Positions 2,020-53,177 of a stretch of 64,000 bases of DNA are shown piece after piece. Origin of the DNA: Isoetes taiwanensis (Eukaryota; Streptophyta; Lycopodiopsida; Isoetales; Isoetaceae); the NCBI GenBank assembly GCA_021234155.1, contig JAJEKV010000059.1, positions 3,355,167 through 3,419,166 of the forward strand, written 5' to 3'. The position numbers were made by a program, and so were the translations under genes. Numbering within the stretch: the first letter of the stretch is position 1; each line of letters opens with the position of its first letter. The notes beneath the pieces are model-generated. The model did not search any database and was not told where the DNA came from. It saw only the letters and a program-made list of their open reading frames with translations.

Positions 2020-2600
2020 GTAGGCAACTTGTAGTCTTAGTTTTCAACAATTAAGCTAGGTGGTGGTTATTGTTGTCTTTGATTAACACACTAAAGGTTT
2101 ATAAAAAATATGTGACGAAGAATAGGTCCAACGTTATTTGTTATTGGGCATTCGAGAAGAAGCAGCAAGAAAAGAGCATAGAAGGTTGTCCAAATGCCCA
2201 TCAGATATGTCAAAGCAAGGATCAGTATAAGGTGCAATAGTTTTGACAAACTCGCAATGTTTGTTGTCATCTCGTCTATACCACCATGGCATGAACATAT
2301 ACATGCAGTAGATGGAAAAACACATATTACTATTATCCATGGTTCTTGAACAAAATGAACAAGCTTCAGATCATGCCATTATTCATTCGGGGGGTTTTAA
2401 CAAACCATTCCTAGTTTTAATAAACTGGTAGAAATCACTATCATATACAAGGCTTGTATTAAAATCATCTCATAAACTATAACTAGTTTTAGCAAACCAT
2501 CATTCATTGGCAACTAGCATCAAAAACCATGTTGTAAGCCACTATTAGTTTCGACAAACTGCTATACCATGTGGTTTTCTTTTATCAAATGAATTGTCGT
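2020..2600. other. AT-rich spacer with degenerate short repeats
   Basis: No gene. Between about 2395 and 2570 a degenerate word resembling AGTTTTAACAAACC recurs several times at irregular spacing, for example near 2396, 2414, 2483 and 2549. It may be a remnant of a transposon arm belonging to the protein relic that starts at 2602. Confidence 0.35.
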
Positions 2601-43758: not shown

Positions 43759-43762
43759 GATA
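43759..43762. repeat. Target-site duplication GATA (left), 9.4-kb DNA transposon
   Basis: GATA precedes the left terminal repeat and recurs at 53174-53177. Removing one copy and the insert restores the copia reading frame across the site, so the 4-bp duplication is firmly set. Confidence 0.95.
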
Positions 43763-43785
43763 GGGTAAAAGAAAGCTAGGGTGTC
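43763..43785 (+). repeat. Left terminal inverted repeat (23 bp)
   Basis: GGGTAAAAGAAAGCTAGGG plus TGTC; perfect inverse of 53151-53173. Confidence 0.95.
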
Positions 43786-44094
43786 TAAAAAAAATGCCCT
43801 TACATTATGTATAATGTAGGGCATGTAGGCACCCGTTTTTGTTATTTTTTTGAATTTTAGTTAGTTGGGATATGAAATGATTAGGAGTAGCCACGTCAGC
43901 AATTCAAAATTATGAGTGGCAGTGGCAACCAGAACGGACCTTCATTGCAATTTTTCGGAGGGAGATTGCGAAGTGTTTCCTGTTTAGGAAAAAAATTTGC
44001 CCGCCGTTCCAATTTTTTGTGTTTGTGAGTGATCAACGAAGTAATTCGAGTGTAACTATTCTTCTTCCTCGAAATCCTTGCCCAAATCCAAGCA

Positions 44095-45064
44095 ATGGAC
44101 GCCTTTGCCTCCCGAAAGTCACCCAGATTAAACAAAAATTTGAAAATAGCCGATTCTAGCAAGAAAGCCGAAAAACAAGAGGAAGGTTCAAACTTCGAGG
44201 AACCAGGGCCAAAAAGAAGACTTATTTGTGAAGAACCCTGTTGTGGAAGCAAAGCATGTAAGATGTGTCAATGCGGATGAAATTTTTCCAGATTTACAAC
44301 GGATAATGGACGAAAGCAAAGGGGGGCCCAAAGACATACGGGGGTTCAAAGAATCTAGCGTGAAGCCGAGTGGGTGAGAACTTCTACAAACATTATGAAA
44401 TTGTTTTTGGTAAGCGGGGAGGTCACAAATCGCCATGTACCGAAAGTACTTTGCTCGTGCATTTGCCCTTCAATTGACAGGTAAAAAAGTAGATTGGGAT
44501 ACTTTTAAAGTTCGCCAAAGATTTGGCAAAGGGAGGGGCAAAAGAATCTGCATTCTGAGAAGAAATTGGGACCTCTAAATCCACATCCAAGGTTCCTAAA
44601 TTTCAGCAAGGATTTTACCCTAAGGAAGAGCTTGAATTTGCGTAAACTCATTTAAAGCCCGGTGTCATGGAGAGTTAATTAGCAAAGACATCCAAGGTTG
44701 AAGAACCGAAAATCCAGCGGGGCATTTAATTACGTGACAATATAAATAAGATTTCAGGAAGAAAGGATGCACATGAAGAGGACCTAGCACGGATACAAGA
44801 AGACATCAATAGTGTTCTCGCCTTTAAAAGCGAAAAAAAGAGAGACATCAAGACATCGGCAAAGCAGGAGGTTGACCTTTGATGAGGGATAGAAACAGAA
44901 GGAAGAAATCTTTGAAGAGAATTCAGGAGCCATTGGAGAAAGCCATTCGGGAGAAGGAGTTATGTGAAAAGAGGATTGCAGAACTTGAGGAGGCCCACAA
45001 AGTTCGGTTTGAGTGCTGCAGACGGCTTGATGATATGCATAAGTACATGATGCATTCGCAATGA
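44095..45064 (+). pseudogene. N-terminal part of the Ulp1-like cargo gene: basic start and coiled coil
   Basis: The frame opens at MDAFASRKSPRLNK, a basic SPRLNK-type start, then CCGSKACKMCQC with clustered Cys. Broken frames continue to about 44880. At 44879-45064 is a strongly charged heptad-like helix (RIQEPLEKAIREKELCEK, RIAELEEAHKVRFECC), very probably a coiled coil. Whether all of this is one gene with the protease downstream is inferred from shared strand and spacing. Several stops or frame changes intervene. Confidence 0.45.
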
Positions 45065-45117
45065 TTCTCCTTCAGCCCAAAACAAGCTTAGTGATCTCTC
45101 CAGCTGAAGAAAAATTC

Positions 45118-45260
45118 ATATCGTGCATGGATGTGTGTTTTGCAAGAATGGCTTTGCTAATAATGAACCTATCCTAGTTGCTCCATGCGAGCATTCATTT
45201 CATATCTTCATTTCTCATATTCTATTTCTATTTGGACTATCACGCCCAAGAGCATGCAAA
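45118..45260 (+). pseudogene. RING-like zinc-binding remnant
   Basis: The frame reads HGCVFCKNGFANNEPILVAP followed by CEHSFHIF, giving C-x2-C, a 15-residue gap, then C-x-H-x2-H. That is the order of the first part of a RING-H2 finger; the last Cys pair is not visible in frame. If real, a ubiquitin/SUMO-ligase-like finger would sit in the same transposon as a SUMO-type protease. It could also be chance. Confidence 0.35.
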
Positions 45261-46639
45261 TGGGACGATAACATTTCAAAGACCTTGGGGTGTGTACTTT
45301 GGAGGTAAGCAAGATTTCATGATTTATGTTCAATTTGTTGCACCTGGGATTACCGCAATGTAGAATCCATTTACATGTAGAATCTATTTACATGTAGATT
45401 CTTTGCACTTAAGGTTTTGCTACTGACATGTAGGAGTGTATCTTGGTTATTTTATACTTATAGTTCCTTGGCTTGCATGTCATACATATATGTGTTTCTT
45501 ACATACATGTTGTACATTCACGGTTGTAGGGTCCTAAATGTAGAACTTAAATACATAAAATTAGGAGTTGTGTAATCGAGTTTTGTGGCGAGAACATTTA
45601 GAGGTATTTTATGTCTTGTGTGATGTGTACATGTGCATACATTGGAGCACATTCATGTACATTACATGTACATTCCATCCGGATAAATAGTTGTTTACAT
45701 ATGTATGTACTCAAAGTACTTCAATGTAGATCGAGTTCTAGTAATATGTACTGCTATTGATATGTGCTGTAACAGATTTAGAGACCGATTATTTTGAGAC
45801 CGATATCCGGATGTTATGTGATTTATTTTTGAGCTTCAAAGTGCCAAAAAAACTATTGAAAGCGAGAAATTACACCACGGATCAGGTGCGCTTTGTTTTC
45901 AAATTCTATTTGCATTGTGTCGAGGAAGCAATTTCTTATTCTTGGTTCGGTTTTCCACAGTTTTGGAGGTTCCAAAGAAAATTGAGGTGCAAGATGTAGC
46001 CGAGGGAAAGAAAGCGTTGATTGAAGGAAAAAGCAAAATCACTATTCTAGCGGTGATCTGAGTTGAGGAGGCGGCACTTCAGTCCGCATGGTGACATTCA
46101 GTTATGGCGGGAACTCGAGAGATTGAGGGAGCGGGGCTAAGGCCACATCTTCAAAAGTAAAAAGGCCAGCAGAAGATGTGACTCAAAGAAGAACTCCACG
46201 CCTAAAAAAGCCACGGAAGAAGATAATTGAAGCAAAGAGAAACGGGTAAGAAAGCATTTTATTTCAGTGTACAGCAGCTGAGAAATCCATGACATCCTAT
46301 GTTTACAGGTCATAATGAAGAGGAATATTCCGAGCATCAAGATGTAGAGCCCTATACTTTTAAATTTGTGTCAAAACTTGCTTCGACATAGCAAAGGACG
46401 TTGAAATTCGACAATGAGAAATGAAGAAGAGGTTGCGGCGAGGATTCGGACCTAATAAGAATCGAGTGAGGAAACCAAAAAGTAGGGAAGGAAATGGATA
46501 TCGACTCGAGAAAACAAAGACGTCACAGAAAGGAAGAATGATCTCTACAGGTAACTTGATCTACATTTCTTACATTTTTTTCTACATCTAGTATCCAAGT
46601 TAAAAACTTTAAAATAATATGGATAGTAGTAGACGAATG

Positions 46640-47763
46640 TAGATGATTTGTGTAAATGTCTTGGTCATTGAACCCAAACTGCGATTACGAATCACAGCCA
46701 TACGATGCCTTCTTTGAACCGAATGATGAAGCTCAAGAAGGCAAGGATTTTCCAGGATCTTTGCACGAAATGGAGTGTTATTTATTTGAACAAGATGTCT
46801 TTGGACATGGATGTGGGGAAATTTTCCAACGGCATGTGGATATGTATGCCAGTCTTGGACTTTGAACTTGTTCATTTGTATGTGTAAGTCAAGTTAGTAA
46901 TTGTATCCTTTTCAACTTGTTATAGGTACTGCAGCTCTGTGTTCCAGATGATAAGAAGGCCGACGTCTGGTTCTTCCCACCGGACAGCTTCATGGAATTT
47001 GCGGCATGGGCCAAGGCAAGCGAAAAAGATAAATCTATGGCGACCTCGGCGTGGAAGAGATATTGTAAAGGTAGCTCTTCTGAGGGATAAATTAGCTGAA
47101 GTCTTGAGATGGATCATGATTCCAATGCTATGTAGAGTTCTTGAACATCACACTTTGGCCATCTTCAACATGGCACTTACTAAGAGTAAGAACACCATCA
47201 ATATTCGGATCTTCAATTCTGCCGAGGACATTGGCGTTAACATGCTTGCACTTAAGAGGTATTTTGTATTTCACATCTCCTTTTATTAATATTGAGTAGA
47301 TTGGATACCATGTTAGCAGCTTCTTTCATTCATTTGCTACAAAATAGATCTGGTCTTTTGCAGGCTCCATATCCTCACTATGGCACGGTTGTGTCGAAAG
47401 TGTCCCACTTTTTTGAAGCATGGACAAAATCCTTCACCAGTTGTGAAGATTCATAAGTGTCCACAGCAGAAAGATGGGGATTCATGTGGCCTCTATGTTG
47501 CAGCTTATATACGAAGTTTGTAGACACATCGTGTGTGGTAAAACTACCAATGTGAGTGTCTCACTTCTTTTGTCTTACAAACAAATGGTTTTAATACTTA
47601 TTATGTAAGTATTGTTGTCACATTTGCATTATTCAAACGGTTCTTGACAAAGTATGCATCTGATCGTCGTGATGTTCTCACCCGAGCACTACTTCAGGAG
47701 TTGGACCACATTCAAATCGCACCCGAACCTATTAGACCACCTGGTACTAATAAATGTGGCTGA
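46640..47763 (+). pseudogene. Ulp1-like (C48) protease domain, frameshifted, Asp replaced by Asn
   Basis: 46656-46865 encodes an acidic segment. After an acceptor-like TTATAG, 46926 onward reads DDKKADVWFFPPDSFMEF, then a frame change near 47067. The catalytic region reads IMIPMLCRVLEHHTLAIFNM (His near 47150), RIFNSAED where the catalytic Asp is expected (here Asn), and after an intron-like gap CPQQKDGDSCGLYV with the Cys at 47485-47487. A C-terminal piece (SDRRDVLTRALLQELDHIQI) ends near 47763. Catalytic Asn is tolerated in some cysteine proteases, so this need not mean loss. At least two frame breaks suggest decay or missed introns. Confidence 0.7.
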
Positions 47764-47900
47764 GAAACAGCCTCTCCCTATTGTCAATGCTAAACACTAT
47801 TTGATTATAAAATACACATTTTTTCATTGAATTTGAATACAATCTCTTTTTATTCAACTCCACCATACTTTATTGATAAATTGCATGTTCTTTCATATCA

Positions 47901-48590
47901 GGTGTACAGAAAAGGTTGATAGTGTTTGATATCAATAATGTTTTGGCAAAACAAATACATAGGACTTTGGTATCAGATGATCAGCTAGTTGGAAATTATG
48001 ACATAATAGGCAAGAAAGTGTTGTTTTTAAGGCCCCACCTAGGCAATTCACGGAATTTGTATTTGAACACTTTGAAGTAGGAATATGGTCATCAATAGCT
48101 CCATGGAACCTATCAAGAGTAGTGGATAAAATCTTCACAATGGCCGCAGATAAGGGACTTAAGGTTCACCTTTGATGGAAACCCTTTGTTTGGAGCTGCC
48201 TTTCCGGATTGCAGCAAGTGAAGATAAACCTTTGTATCCGAAGCCAATTGAGTTTATATCTGAAGTATCCGGGCCAGGAATAACAGCAACACACTAATAG
48301 TAGACGACTCCGAGTACAAGATGCTCTTCAATCCCAACGAAAATTGCATATGCCCACCTTCATGGCAGGAAAGTGATGTTGAAGACACAGGTCTCTTGAC
48401 ATACGAAACCATGGCTAGAGGGTTTGTTGATAGCACGGCACCTGCAAAGCGGTATGTGAAGCGTAATCCTTTACTTAATCCATCCGATGTACTAACAACA
48501 ATTTGTTTGGAGGCAAGCGCTTCGAGAGGGCTCTCTGAGGGACGAGAGATGGCATGTCCAGGCTATGGACAAGCTGCAAGAAAGTAACAT
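47901..48590 (+). pseudogene. FCP1-like (NIF/HAD) domain with DINNVL motif
   Basis: It begins after an acceptor (CATATCAG) about 140 bp downstream of the protease end. RLIVFDINNVLA (47916-47951) is HAD motif I with Asn for the second Asp. Then come LFLRPHL and, one frame over, EFVFEHFEVGIWSSIAPWNL followed by SRVVDKIF (48048-48135), a textbook FCP1 core. IVDDSEYKMLFNPNENCICP (48297-48356) keeps the DD pair that is damaged in the 12.3-13.1-kb copy. The frame then runs to 48587 with VDSTAPAKRYVKRNPLL. Its close position behind the Ulp1 domain suggests one fused product or adjacent genes. Two frame changes are present. Confidence 0.78.
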
Positions 48591-48835
48591 ATTAAAAAGC
48601 AGCAGAATAGTATGTACTGGCTTCACATCGGCTGTGACCAGATTTTGAATGTAAATTAATGTTAATATAAAACATGAACAACAGACTTGTATATATTGGC
48701 ATCATATATGATATGACCAGGTTGTATATCTTGTGATATGTAATACAAGAGTTTTTGTCTCCATACATGTTCCACTTTCTGCTTTGTTTCATGAATCAAA
48801 AGAAAAGCTATTGATATCCATTATAACAGAACAAG

Positions 48836-49394
48836 TTCACAGACTAGTTTAACTTCTTCATGCAACAATTGATGAACATTATGTACTTTGATATACATTG
48901 TGCTTGGAAGCGAGAGAAGATATTGTGTGATACTGAAATTTAAGTATCAAAATGCACTTTAGATTAAAAATAAGTAAATAAGAAAAACTTGCAAGCAATC
49001 GACTAGTTTTCTCAACATAACACAGACTAGTTTAACTTCTTCATGCAACAATTGATAAACATTTTGTACTTTTTGATATACATTGTGCTTGGAAACAGAA
49101 GATATTGTGTGATCTTTGAAATTTAAGTATCAAAATGCACATCAGATTAAAAAATAATTAAATAATAATAAACTTGCATCAATCGACTAGTTTTCTCAAC
49201 ATAACACAGACTAGTTTAACTTCTTCATGCAACAATTGATAAACATTTTGTACTTTACGATATACATTTTTGCTTGGTCACGAAGAAGATATTACGTGAT
49301 CTTCAAATTGAAGTATCAAAATGCACTTCGTGATTAAAAATAAGTAAATAACAAAAAACTTACTGAAAGAATCGACTAGTTTTCTCAACATAAC
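48836..49394 (+). repeat. About 185-bp tandem triplication
   Basis: Three consecutive copies start near 48836, 49020 and 49203. Each contains CAGACTAGTTTAACTTCTTC (first two bases differ in some copies), GCAACAATTGAT, AAATTTAAGTATCAAAATGC (or close) and ATCGACTAGTTTTCTCAACA. It lies between the plus-strand cargo and the minus-strand gene, thus in the intergenic 3' region. Confidence 0.9.
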
Positions 49395-49523
49395 AGAAGA
49401 TGATGGCAAATATGAAAGTTCCTTTGTACAGAACTTAGTCATGTGCACTCAACAATCTCAGGTAGGCTTGATATAAGCATGTCATGCACCTCTCGTGTGA
49501 TCATATATCCGTGACGTGCCCCT

Positions 49524-52500
49524 TCAACTTATGCTTGACCTGCTTTGATCGTGAACTTTGCTCCAATTACTGATTAAATTTGGTACCAATACTATTTTGT
49601 CATCCAGCAACTTGTACTTGTGCTTTGTGCCTTGTAGCAGTTGATAGTAATGACCAGCTATAACCCTGTCACCAGCCAGCATTCTATTTCCATAGTCGTC
49701 AATCACATCTTCCTGAAGAATATGCATCTCCTTCTTCGCATAGGAGGGCCGAAGTATGGAACATTTTCATGATTCCACAGGGCAGCAAAAGATGCAAATA
49801 TGTCTCCAATTTGGAGTACATCGGATAGTTCTTGCTCATCAATTTTGCATAAAACCAACTAGCTCTTCTTGTTCGTCGACTGGGCGAACTAGGCTCCGAT
49901 TTTGCGGCTTCCATGCACCACAATGCTCGAGATTCTCACATTTCTCCCATCTGAAATTCAAGCAACCATTGCAAAACATGCGGGGATCTATACATGACAA
50001 GTGTTGGGTCAGCTGGATTAATAGCAGATACACAATGTATAGCTAGAGTACCAGGCAATGTCTCACAATCTGAACGAGGGTCCCTGTTAATGTCTTCTGC
50101 CATCACCTCCCATATGACTCTGTCCATTTTGCACTTCTTTTGTCTCGGCAAAGTGCAAGCGAGTTGGCACCCAAAATCGAACACCATTCTCTTTCCTTTG
50201 CTCGTCACGCTAGGAACCTTTTCTCCAAAGCGACCGCCCATCATGTTCTCCTTTTCCATGGCACGAGCCAAAATAATTCCACTTGCATCCTAATTTTATA
50301 CCATTTATAATATTGGGCCACATTCAAATAAAAGGCTCGAGAACACTTAAACCGAAAGCAAAGACACCCATCAGACCACATGACATGGTATTTGATGTGG
50401 CCAAAACCTTTTGCATCATCCAAATATGGTGCTTCTTGAGTGCAGCTGAACAAAGAAAGCATCATGCTTCATAACATCGGAAACATACAAATGAACATTT
50501 TTTTTTTCAGCTCGCCATTGACTTTCATCATGGTTATATGCACCGGAATAGTTATCGGTCATTGTTCCAATGCTTTCGGACTGAACTTCCCCGAATGGTC
50601 GCAAAGTGTAGTTTCTCGCAAAGTCCATTCTTGACAAAAGCAGAATCATCCCTCAAATTTTTGCGATTTCCTGAATTGTTTGCTCGCCAACTTCTTTGAA
50701 AAGTTGTGAATAGTGAACTTTGTAAGGTGCTGAAACATCTTGTCAAGCAATGTACCTGGAGTCCCGCTTTCAGTAACAAGCTTCAACCTCCTTGAAGTGC
50801 CAGCTTTGGAAGGTTCGTTCACGTACTTGTAAACTTGCCATTCAATGTTCTCATTCTGCGACTCTTTCTCCTTAGGGCCAGATTTGAATATTTTTCGATT
50901 GCCACCGATTACGGCACTCTCCCTTCACACAGTCCAAACTATGCCACTCTTCGCCTTCCTTATCACAGACCGTAGCTCTCCACATAGCACCAACATTTTG
51001 AAATGTTTTAGAAGGAGCTTGGCAGACGCCATTGTTCTCATCTGCTGCACAAACACCACAAGAACATGTACAGTTGGCATGAAATTTGCTCCTCAGGACG
51101 CTAAAAGCTTTCCTGTATAGATCAGCTTGTTCATGCTTCACGCAGCAGCATGTGTTCCTCTCTTTCAACCTTCTCACACACGTAGGCTTAAGCAGCTCGA
51201 ACTTTCTGATGCTAATCTTCGCCGGGATGTTCATCTTTGAACATCTCATACAATTCACTCTGCAAGGAAAAAAAATGGCATGTATAAGTAAGATATAAAT
51301 TAGAACTACTTACGAATTCAAAGATGTTGCAGACATTGCATTAGTTCTATGGCACTCAGATCATGATTTGATATACATTCAACTACTATACCACACCATC
51401 ATACATACCCTGTACATGATATGTACAAATGTATAAATAATGTACGGGTAAAAGCATGTTAGGGTGTACCACTTTTGGAACCTGCAAAAGTACATACACT
51501 AGGTACTTTAGAACTGGGTACTTTCTCATTTTTATTTTCATTAAAACTAGTACAAATATCTAAAATAAAAGTCAAGGACGCATTAATATTCAAAGTTAAG
51601 ATAAAGATAATGCTACCGGAGACCAAAATATATATAAAAGTTCTAGAATGTACCTTTTATTGAGATATTACACAGGTACCCAGTACCCAGTCCTGGGTAC
51701 CTTTTTAGGTACTTTTTTGGTCACTAAATAATACTTTTTAAGGGACACCCTAACATGCTTTTACCCGTACTCCAAAGAGTTCCAGATGTACATAAAAAAA
51801 ACTCAATATGTAACCAGGTCACAGACAGTATCACTGTATTACAGATGTATGTATTTCATACTTTTCTTATGGAAGGAAGTACATTTAAATACTTTTATGT
51901 ATCACCCTATCTTTAAAGACTATCTTGAGATCAGAAAGGCTTAAAATGTACTATAATGTACTTGGGAACTACAAAAAGCAAGACTATAATAACACAGCCT
52001 GACTTTCAACACATTTTCTGCCTTATGCCACATTGGATGTAACTGGAAGTACATCCAAGTACTTTTCCTGTTAAACATAGCTCATTCAGTACCTCCAAGT
52101 GTAAAAATATAATTATTGTAGTTGGATGTACTACAATGTATATCAGATACATCCCTTACATGGAATGCAAATAGGATTACTAAACTTATCCAGGATGCAC
52201 ATAAGCTAGCTTCTATCAAGCTTGCAAGAAAGAGGATTAAAAGACTTAAAACTGACCTGGGGCATGTCCAAAAACTGGATTGGAAGTGTCCTTTTCTTCC
52301 TGACATCCCTGTACTTTGGAGAAGTTTTTGTGTGGGTTAACCAAAACTCATTTACCAACTGTTTGGTTGATTCCGGAAGCATGTCTGCCCTGGGTTGCCT
52401 TCCTGCCAGTGCCCACATATTAGCTTTTGATAATGACATCCTTTCTTCTAATTGCAGCTTTTGTGAGGTTTCTTGCTTGCACTTGAAGAATTCGGAGGCT

Positions 52501-52862
52501 ACTCCTTTTTGCCCTGAGTTTTCCATTCTCACCAACAATCATTGATAATGAGGGAATGCTTAGTCGCTAATTTATCATTGCTATTTGCTCTTTTCACTTC
52601 CCGGCAGACCTTCACGGATATTTTTAGCATAGTATCCTTCAGAATTGCTTATATTTGGATTTCCAATGGCAGGTTCAAAAAGAAGTGCAGCCTTTCATCC
52701 CCAGCAGTTTTCATCGCTAAAGCTCTCCTTTGCACGGGGCGTAAATCTTGAACGATCATATATAAATTTACAAATTTCATCAATCTTACGCTTCATTTTC
52801 TTTGTCACATTCCCGATATTGCAATCTTCTTGCGCCATTTTCGTTCCTTCGTTGTTCATCAT
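49524..52862 (-). pseudogene. Multi-exon transposase-like gene of the 9.4-kb element
   Basis: On minus, a likely start near 52862 (MMNNEGTKMAQEDCN) is followed by 52538-52206 (VNEFWLTHTKTSPKYRDVRKK, then FLDMPQVSFKSF), 51258-50872 (PAKISIRKFELLKPTCVRR, ERNTCCCVKHEQADLYRKAF, CSCGVC), 50649-50416 (RMDFARNYTLRPFGEVQSES and SDVMKHDAFFVQ), 50430-50250 (YHVMWSDGCLCFRFKC), and 50271-49936 (LARAMEKENMMGGRFGEKVP, close to an HGK-DG pattern). I know this motif order (SP-RDV-KKR, TCCC-H, MDFA-NY-EVQS, SDG-FK, HGK-DG) from an uncharacterised transposon protein family in plants and animals; the Asp of MDF and SDG could be catalytic. Exon joins are not resolved and a MITE interrupts the region at 51446. 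Terminal repeats on the element make a transposase role likely. Confidence 0.6.
51446..51766. mobile_element. 321-bp MITE related to the element that contains it
   Basis: Its ends are perfect 22-bp inverted repeats starting GGGTAAAAGCATGTTAGGG, with GTAC on both sides (51442-51445, 51767-51770). The terminal sequence matches the host element's GGGTAAAAGAAAGCTAGGG at 15 of 19 positions and continues with TGT in both. The 4-bp duplication size is also the same. The interior is AT-rich with a GTACCCAGTACCCAGT stretch near 51677 and has no gene. It is probably mobilised by a transposase of the same family. Confidence 0.9.
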
Positions 52863-53150
52863 GGTTTTGCGTGGTTTAGGGTTAGGCTGGAGGAATTCGC
52901 AAGAAGGAGGGAAATCCTCGAGTCTGGGCGAAGTTTTAGCCGAAAGTGGGAAATTCTCCTAACGTTCGGCGTTTCTTGGAGTGGTTTCTGGCCGGCGGAA
53001 TTGAAATCGCTTCATGATTGCGTTTTAATTGGCGTGGCAAGTAGTTCCGAAAAAAAAGATTTCATAATATAGCTATTATGTACATACTGAAAAAACGGTT
53101 ATGTATTTGAAATGTGATACATCTCTTACTCTACATTTGGCCAAATGTAA

Positions 53151-53173
53151 GACACCCTAGCTTTCTTTTACCC
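53151..53173 (-). repeat. Right terminal inverted repeat (23 bp)
   Basis: GACACCCTAGCTTTCTTTTA plus CCC, the exact reverse complement of 43763-43785. Confidence 0.95.
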
Positions 53174-53177
53174 GATA
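53174..53177. repeat. Target-site duplication GATA (right), 9.4-kb DNA transposon
   Basis: Matches 43759-43762; beyond it the copia reading frame continues. Confidence 0.95.

Follow-up and report, generated by a model that had tools for sequence, protein, structure and literature searches.

Ends, insertion site and copies of the element

The 64,000-nucleotide stretch of Isoetes taiwanensis DNA analysed here, termed the window, contains a DNA transposon at positions 43763–53173. Its ends are perfect 24-bp terminal inverted repeats (TIRs; GGGTAAAAGAAAGCTAGGGTGTCT), located at 43763–43786 on the plus strand and at 53150–53173 on the minus strand, and the target-site duplication GATA lies directly outside both of them (43759–43762 and 53174–53177). 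Starting at the left end, the element passes through a sub-terminal palindrome (43797–43823) and continues as a gene on the plus strand (44095–48592), termed ORF2 for second open reading frame. After three tandem units of ~183 bp (48838–49395) comes the convergent transposase gene on the minus strand (49439–52862), and then a second palindrome TACATTTGGCCAAATGTA (53132–53149) just inside the right TIR. The tandem units separate the two genes, and the same cross-matches are present in other copies. The limits of ORF2 were set by eye and from better copies, and the region may comprise one gene or more. Both genes are broken by stop codons and frameshifts, and the window copy is thus a dead member of a large family. 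An earlier reading of this DNA made from its letters alone (the sequence-only reading) had described the element as autonomous-looking, which does not hold for this copy; the same reading was right that the inverted repeats are perfect, and gave their length one base short, as 23 bp.

The element interrupts a copia reverse-transcriptase frame. When the flanks are joined with one GATA, a frame of 129 codons spans the junction, and past one stop the restored reading continues in the same frame. Joining them with two GATA gives a frameshift at the junction and a stop ~44 bases downstream. Both the duplication and the restored frame had been recognized from the sequence alone.

As the sequence-only reading had suggested, the termini were searched for in the genome (1,658,258,908 bases in 1,110 contigs; PMC8566536 describes an Isoetes taiwanensis assembly of 1658.30 Mb, comprising 204 scaffolds and 909 contigs, from Nanopore reads with Illumina polishing). 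The 24-mer has 298 exact matches (158 + 140) and the reversed-pattern control none, so chance is excluded as the origin of the ends. The window element is a real transposon copy. Pairing neighbouring convergent ends no more than 35 kb apart among the first 100 of the 298 matches gave 27 pairs. The spacing is 9,030–9,135 bp in 11 of these and 8.7–9.5 kb in 15. A single pair is more closely spaced, at 5.4 kb, and in the remaining eleven the ends lie farther apart, probably reflecting nested insertions or the pairing of ends from two elements.

Exact 4-bp duplications flank 9 of 11 aligned copies of the family, termed family A (8 of 10 when the duplicate L006/L007 is counted once), and 17 of 20 further copies, fetched from the 27 end pairs. 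Overall 25 of 30 independent family-A copies have the duplication, with no evident sequence preference. L006 and L007 lie ~28 kb apart on contig C1044 with identical flanks, and therefore probably arose by duplication of one larger segment. The 11 aligned copies each differ from their majority consensus by 240–449 substitutions, together with many small insertions and deletions (indels). Both sub-terminal palindromes are identical in all 11. The sequence-only reading had placed palindromes just inside both ends; in comparison with shuffled sequences the left 100 bases fold better (z = −3.3) and the right no better (z = −0.5).

The two convergent genes

The transposase gene comprises exon 1 (52862–52257), an intron (52256–51260) and exon 2 (51259–49439), with splice sites and limits placed by eye. 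The catalytic core lies at 50230–50650, where the first aspartate is in MDFARNY (~50624), the second in WSDGC (~50371) and the third in an HGK-HDG motif (~50240–50262) that is read in a shifted frame. The multi-exon structure and the MDFA and SDG motifs agree with the sequence-only reading. A search of the genome with the protein, also proposed there, produced roughly 9,730 first-look candidates, from which 137 matches were listed starting with the best scored. Divergent relatives are numerous, with open exons that reach 629 codons. Among 14 transposase sequences, 54–98% identical to the copy L014, many residues are invariant, including D226 and D310 (L014 numbering). In a core alignment of eight sequences D226, D310, D351 and E353 are all invariant, and we infer that D351, rather than the likewise invariant E353, is the third catalytic acid.

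None of the transposase models of Pfam and NCBIfam matches the protein (all 14 sequences were included in the Pfam scan), and a sequence search of the PDB returned no transposase, only weak and unrelated matches. Weak Pfam matches that fall below the cut-off, among them Pro-kumamolisin, UvsX and coiled-coil families, were rejected. An AlphaFold model is confident over about residues 210–400, where the elements of secondary structure follow the order of the RNase H fold. In structural alignment the highest scores are those of retroviral integrases, led by the simian immunodeficiency virus intasome (Z = 10.1, 2.8 Å over 131 residues); Mos1 (Z = 8.7, 3.4 Å over 157 residues) and Metnase (Z = 8.8) follow. 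The minus-strand gene is read as that of a DDD-type transposase, with a predicted core of RNase H fold like those of retroviral integrases and Mos1. In a Foldseek search of a viral library the sole match at E ≤ 0.001 was a phage terminase, rejected with an rmsd (root-mean-square deviation) of 21.

The ratio of non-synonymous to synonymous substitution rates (dN/dS) of the transposase lies at 0.07–0.17 in 10 pairs and reaches 0.35 in the closest one, with 34 of 45 pairs saturated; these values were computed on chosen open frames and are biased downward. They point to purifying selection on several of the divergent relatives.

ORF2 has an N-terminal conserved domain (44243–44509), matched in tblastn by the corresponding domain of a second family, B (E = 3e-8 and 1e-6). 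A possible coiled-coil segment follows (44876–45061), an open frame assigned by the character of its sequence; the family-B coiled coil has no tblastn match in the window. A possible RING-like Cys/His motif (45126–45250) was seen by eye and is not matched in Pfam tests. The Ulp1 (peptidase C48) domain lies at 47130–47520, with His and Asn near 47140–47220 and Cys near 47490, all located by eye. The gene ends with an FCP1/NIF-like domain (47880–48592) that contains the DxN motif FDINNVLA and is matched in tblastn by the family-A copy L011 (E = 5e-66). Ulp1 followed by an FCP1-like domain is the order given in the sequence-only reading. The FCP1-like part is clear from the better-preserved L011 (PF03031, E = 1.1e-16; TIGR02251, E = 9e-10, under its curated cut-off), while Ulp1 is borderline in the window copy (Pfam C48, E = 3.4e-4 over 47422–47514, 20.9 bits, the cut-off being 20.7). 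In the divergent families, too, ORF2 is convergent with the transposase gene and carries the N-domain and coiled coil together with Ulp1, FCP1/NIF or both.

The association of the two genes was examined among the best-scored places in the genome (128 transposase, 150 N-domain, 144 Ulp1 and 148 NIF), taken as paired within 15 kb. Each combination has a chance expectation of 0.3–0.4 pairs. Transposase and Ulp1 form 23 pairs, all on opposite strands and 16 of them 2.9–5.6 kb apart; transposase and N-domain form 12, again all on opposite strands, with 9 at 6.0–7.4 kb. All seven transposase–NIF pairs are on opposite strands and six are convergent. The N-domain and Ulp1 are on the same strand in 54 of 54 pairs, the N-domain being upstream in 53, with 39 at 2.2–3.2 kb.

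The genome search with the Pfam NIF profile gave 3,263 first-look candidates, of which 150 were scored. Six lower-ranked loci among them were taken with their flanks, and five have a transposase relative on the opposite strand 0.2–3 kb downstream (24–68% identity, all 10 queries matching). Many of the lower-scoring NIF candidates look transposon-borne, on the evidence of these five of six; those with the highest scores resemble host genes, and several lie close together on contig C1018.

The Ulp1/NIF gene might be an independent element, inserted repeatedly beside transposases. The NIF and Ulp1 matches outnumber those that could be checked for a partner, and at the sixth sampled locus, L109, the 6.5 kb fetched contain no match to the transposase. 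Against this, a single pair of inverted repeats encloses both genes in family A, and one family-B element, with AGTG flanking it on either side, encloses both likewise. We regard separate insertion as very improbable.

Readable NIF sequences of the transposon type have the motif DxN. It is present in 15 of 15 readable sequences (19 were examined, and four have no readable motif) and also in L105–L110 and L118, giving 22 of 22. The search patterns admitted D and N alike, and the genome query that yielded L091–L104 started past the motif. The transposon type was assigned by similarity, an adjacent transposase being seen for 8 of the 22 (L011, L012, L028, L105–L108 and L110). The same Pfam domain, PF03031, is found in the canonical FCP1/SCP phosphatases of this genome. 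Seven of eight higher-scoring NIF genes sampled are DxD, and are inferred to be host genes; the eighth, L118, is of the DxN type. In the known FCP1/SCP enzymes the second aspartate is the general acid/base, and the transposon NIF domain therefore probably serves for binding and not as a phosphatase. In Ulp1, asparagine occupies the expected place of the aspartate in five of five copies, preceded by the histidine (the search pattern demanded Asn), and the cysteine motif is readable in three of the five.

For the NIF domain dN/dS is 0.22–0.39 in 15 pairs with dS of 0.7–1.2, and a single distant pair gives 0.27; of the 36 pairs, 7 are saturated. Single pairs give 0.21 for the N-domain and 0.27 for Ulp1, the latter over a stretch without the Cys exon. 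These ratios bear on the possibility that Ulp1 and NIF are functionless pieces captured from the host. Ulp1 is borne by other transposons, including plant Mutator elements (PMC2836005, in its remarks on Ulp1), the 13 closest NIF pairs have dN/dS of 0.33–0.85, and 2 of the 11 family-A copies have lost large parts of ORF2. Yet strand, order and spacing are conserved in the co-location lists and in five of the six sampled NIF loci, and the more distant ratios are low; functionless capture is accordingly an unlikely explanation. The sequence-only reading had held that copies lacking the cargo genes would mark them as chance captures. When such copies were looked for, L003 and L006, both with extensive ORF2 deletions, and the 5.4-kb end pair came up, all of which look like later deletions; two family-B elements have Ulp1 with no NIF found. 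Taken over the divergent families, ORF2 accompanies the transposase under constraint and is not a chance capture. Given the selection on this gene, the extra domains look like working equipment rather than accidental cargo.

Two loci depart from the usual layout. At L017 an extra NIF-like domain lies on the minus strand just beyond the left end of the family-B element (~1103–1510). At L016, a family-E locus whose left terminal repeat was not found, the ORF2 N-domain is inverted beside Ulp1 (2318–2527, minus strand), suggesting a local rearrangement.

Placement and proposed mechanism

The best filing of the element is as Sola-like. Sola is described in PMC10741241 as having a DDD transposase and 4-bp duplications, with most elements 2–9 kb in length and TIRs of 11–1124 bp, and as present in the moss Physcomitrella. 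The duplication in family A, the invariant aspartates with their modelled RNase H fold, and the size range all agree with this. The Ulp1/NIF second gene differs, being unmentioned in the Sola passages of that paper. The element is likened to Sola by description, and the label is meant as a resemblance rather than a membership. The sequence-only reading had found a fit to no plant superfamily it knew; no strong match to a profile of a described superfamily was found, but a DDD transposase with a 4-bp duplication is Sola as PMC10741241 describes it.

Ginger was also considered, an element with a transposase like the Gypsy integrase, a Ulp1 domain and a 4-bp duplication. Ginger1 indeed has Ulp1 domains and 4-bp duplications, according to the account in PMC2836005, and the core predicted here is integrase-like. 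However, the same account gives Ginger TGTNR ends, and Ginger1 CCGG or CCGT targets and Ulp1 at the C-terminus of a transposase of Gypsy-integrase sequence, whereas the termini here begin with GGG (GGGTAAAAG), the duplications are variable and Ulp1 is in a separate convergent gene. The sequence-only reading had proposed trying profiles of Ginger and KDZ, among others; the Gypsy-integrase profile rve has no match at E ≤ 5 in any of the 14 transposase sequences. Membership in Ginger is scarcely credible. Mutator elements share with this one a plant DNA transposon that bears Ulp1 (PMC2836005), but are described as having TIRs sometimes longer than 300 bp and duplications of 7–12 bp (PMC10741241), and there is no match here to the MULE profile.

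Pfam holds profiles for KDZ, hAT, MULE, CACTA, PIF/Harbinger, piggyBac, P, Tc1/mariner and Merlin. KDZ (Zisupton), like rve, has no match at E ≤ 5 in the 14 sequences, and none of the other transposase profiles matches. Academ, Chapaev, Kolobok and Zator are not among the Pfam matches of this general scan, in which the presence of their models in the library was unchecked. Pfam probably has no model for Sola, and the missing match is therefore uninformative on Sola.

These negatives bear on whether the element belongs to a separate DD-type lineage outside the named superfamilies, marked by termini and a helper gene of its own. The profiles and PDB sequences without a match would favour this, as would the second gene absent from the Sola description in PMC10741241. 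Searches of viral contigs and of one genome per prokaryote species gave pattern matches only, with no relative confirmed; there was no match in plasmids, and three phage matches at E = 8 were rejected. The first of these points, with Sola probably lacking a profile, is silent on Sola. Animal proteins presumably share the order DFAEN, SDG and HGK-DG, which would place the element in a known group. Overall a separate lineage is doubtful. A search of the literature found no title or abstract in which a NIF/FCP1 partner accompanies a transposase, or Ulp1 a Sola element, although absence from print is unproven by this; nothing was found on Isoetes with Sola, or with the animal motif. Whether the element is undescribed is uncertain.

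We consider it most probable, at roughly 60%, that this is a Sola-like cut-and-paste DNA transposon with a convergent helper gene, of which the window holds a dead copy. The minus-strand protein would bind the 24-bp ends, pair and cut them, and then join them to the target DNA across a stagger of 4 bp; the ends are observed and the fold is predicted. The Ulp1 part of the helper would most likely remove SUMO, either from proteins of the host or from the transposase itself. The FCP1/NIF part would most likely bind a phosphorylated partner, such as the tail of RNA polymerase II, without dephosphorylating it. In these ways the helper may aid expression or access to chromatin.

Several points weigh against this reading. 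The AlphaFold model has a mean predicted local distance difference test score (pLDDT) of 46.9, with only the core confident, and the C-terminal domain modelled alone has a mean of 43.4 with no confident structure. Argonaute-type RNase H proteins come near the integrases in score (Z up to 9.3), and no PDB structure is matched by plain Foldseek at E ≤ 0.001; the fold class is therefore supported and the nearest family is not. The family name Sola is based on the DDD core and the 4-bp duplication. In the best-scored lists the NIF places share no pairs with those of the N-domain or Ulp1, since the query sequences had been taken from different families and NIF is undetected in the family-B elements. 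The two family-B elements have kept Ulp1 with no NIF domain found inside, and families A and E alone were seen to combine the two domains, the family-C element being covered except for its left half. Finally, constraint is weak in the closest NIF pairs, and the functions given to the helper are conjecture.

Should the reading hold, two domains of host pathways, one for SUMO removal and one a phosphatase-fold binder, are tied to transposition across several divergent families, in a plant that is probably vascular and seed-free. The contrast of DxN with DxD provides a clean and testable idea, that selection has maintained a domain after the loss of a residue required for catalysis. There exists, moreover, an abundant group of transposases without a name in current Pfam and NCBIfam. 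More tentatively, this may be a deep and very successful lineage of plant transposons, outside the named superfamilies or a new major branch of Sola, in which a deSUMOylase is partnered by a disabled FCP1/SCP phosphatase that may tether the machinery to phosphorylated RNA polymerase II or to chromatin. If true, such a tether would couple transposition to transcription.

Small indels and a nested miniature element

The window element and L001–L010 have unusually many small indels relative to substitutions (1.6 per 100 bp against 2.7% substitutions), the first 300 bp and the last 1.2 kb being less affected. The ratio of gaps to mismatches is lower in five other pairs (18:68, 51:226, 17:210, 18:226 and 11:59). 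Homopolymer sequencing error was rejected as the source, as single-base indels are not enriched in homopolymers; leftover assembly error is still a conceivable cause.

The putative transposase intron contains a nested miniature inverted-repeat transposable element (MITE) of 321 bp (51446–51766), with related ends GGGTAAAAGCATGTTAGGGTGT and flanked by the target duplication GTAC (51442–51445 and 51767–51770). It is young and present in high copy number, and by eye its ends are nearer those of families C and E than those of the host element. All 40 places scored, among 2,074 first-look candidates, are ~99% identical to it. Together with the transposase pair L013/L014, for which dS is 0.03, these near-identical copies suggest that relatives of the element have been active recently. 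Gaps are absent from all 20 of the MITEs compared, and exact 4-bp duplications flank 17 of 20 MITE copies elsewhere in the genome.

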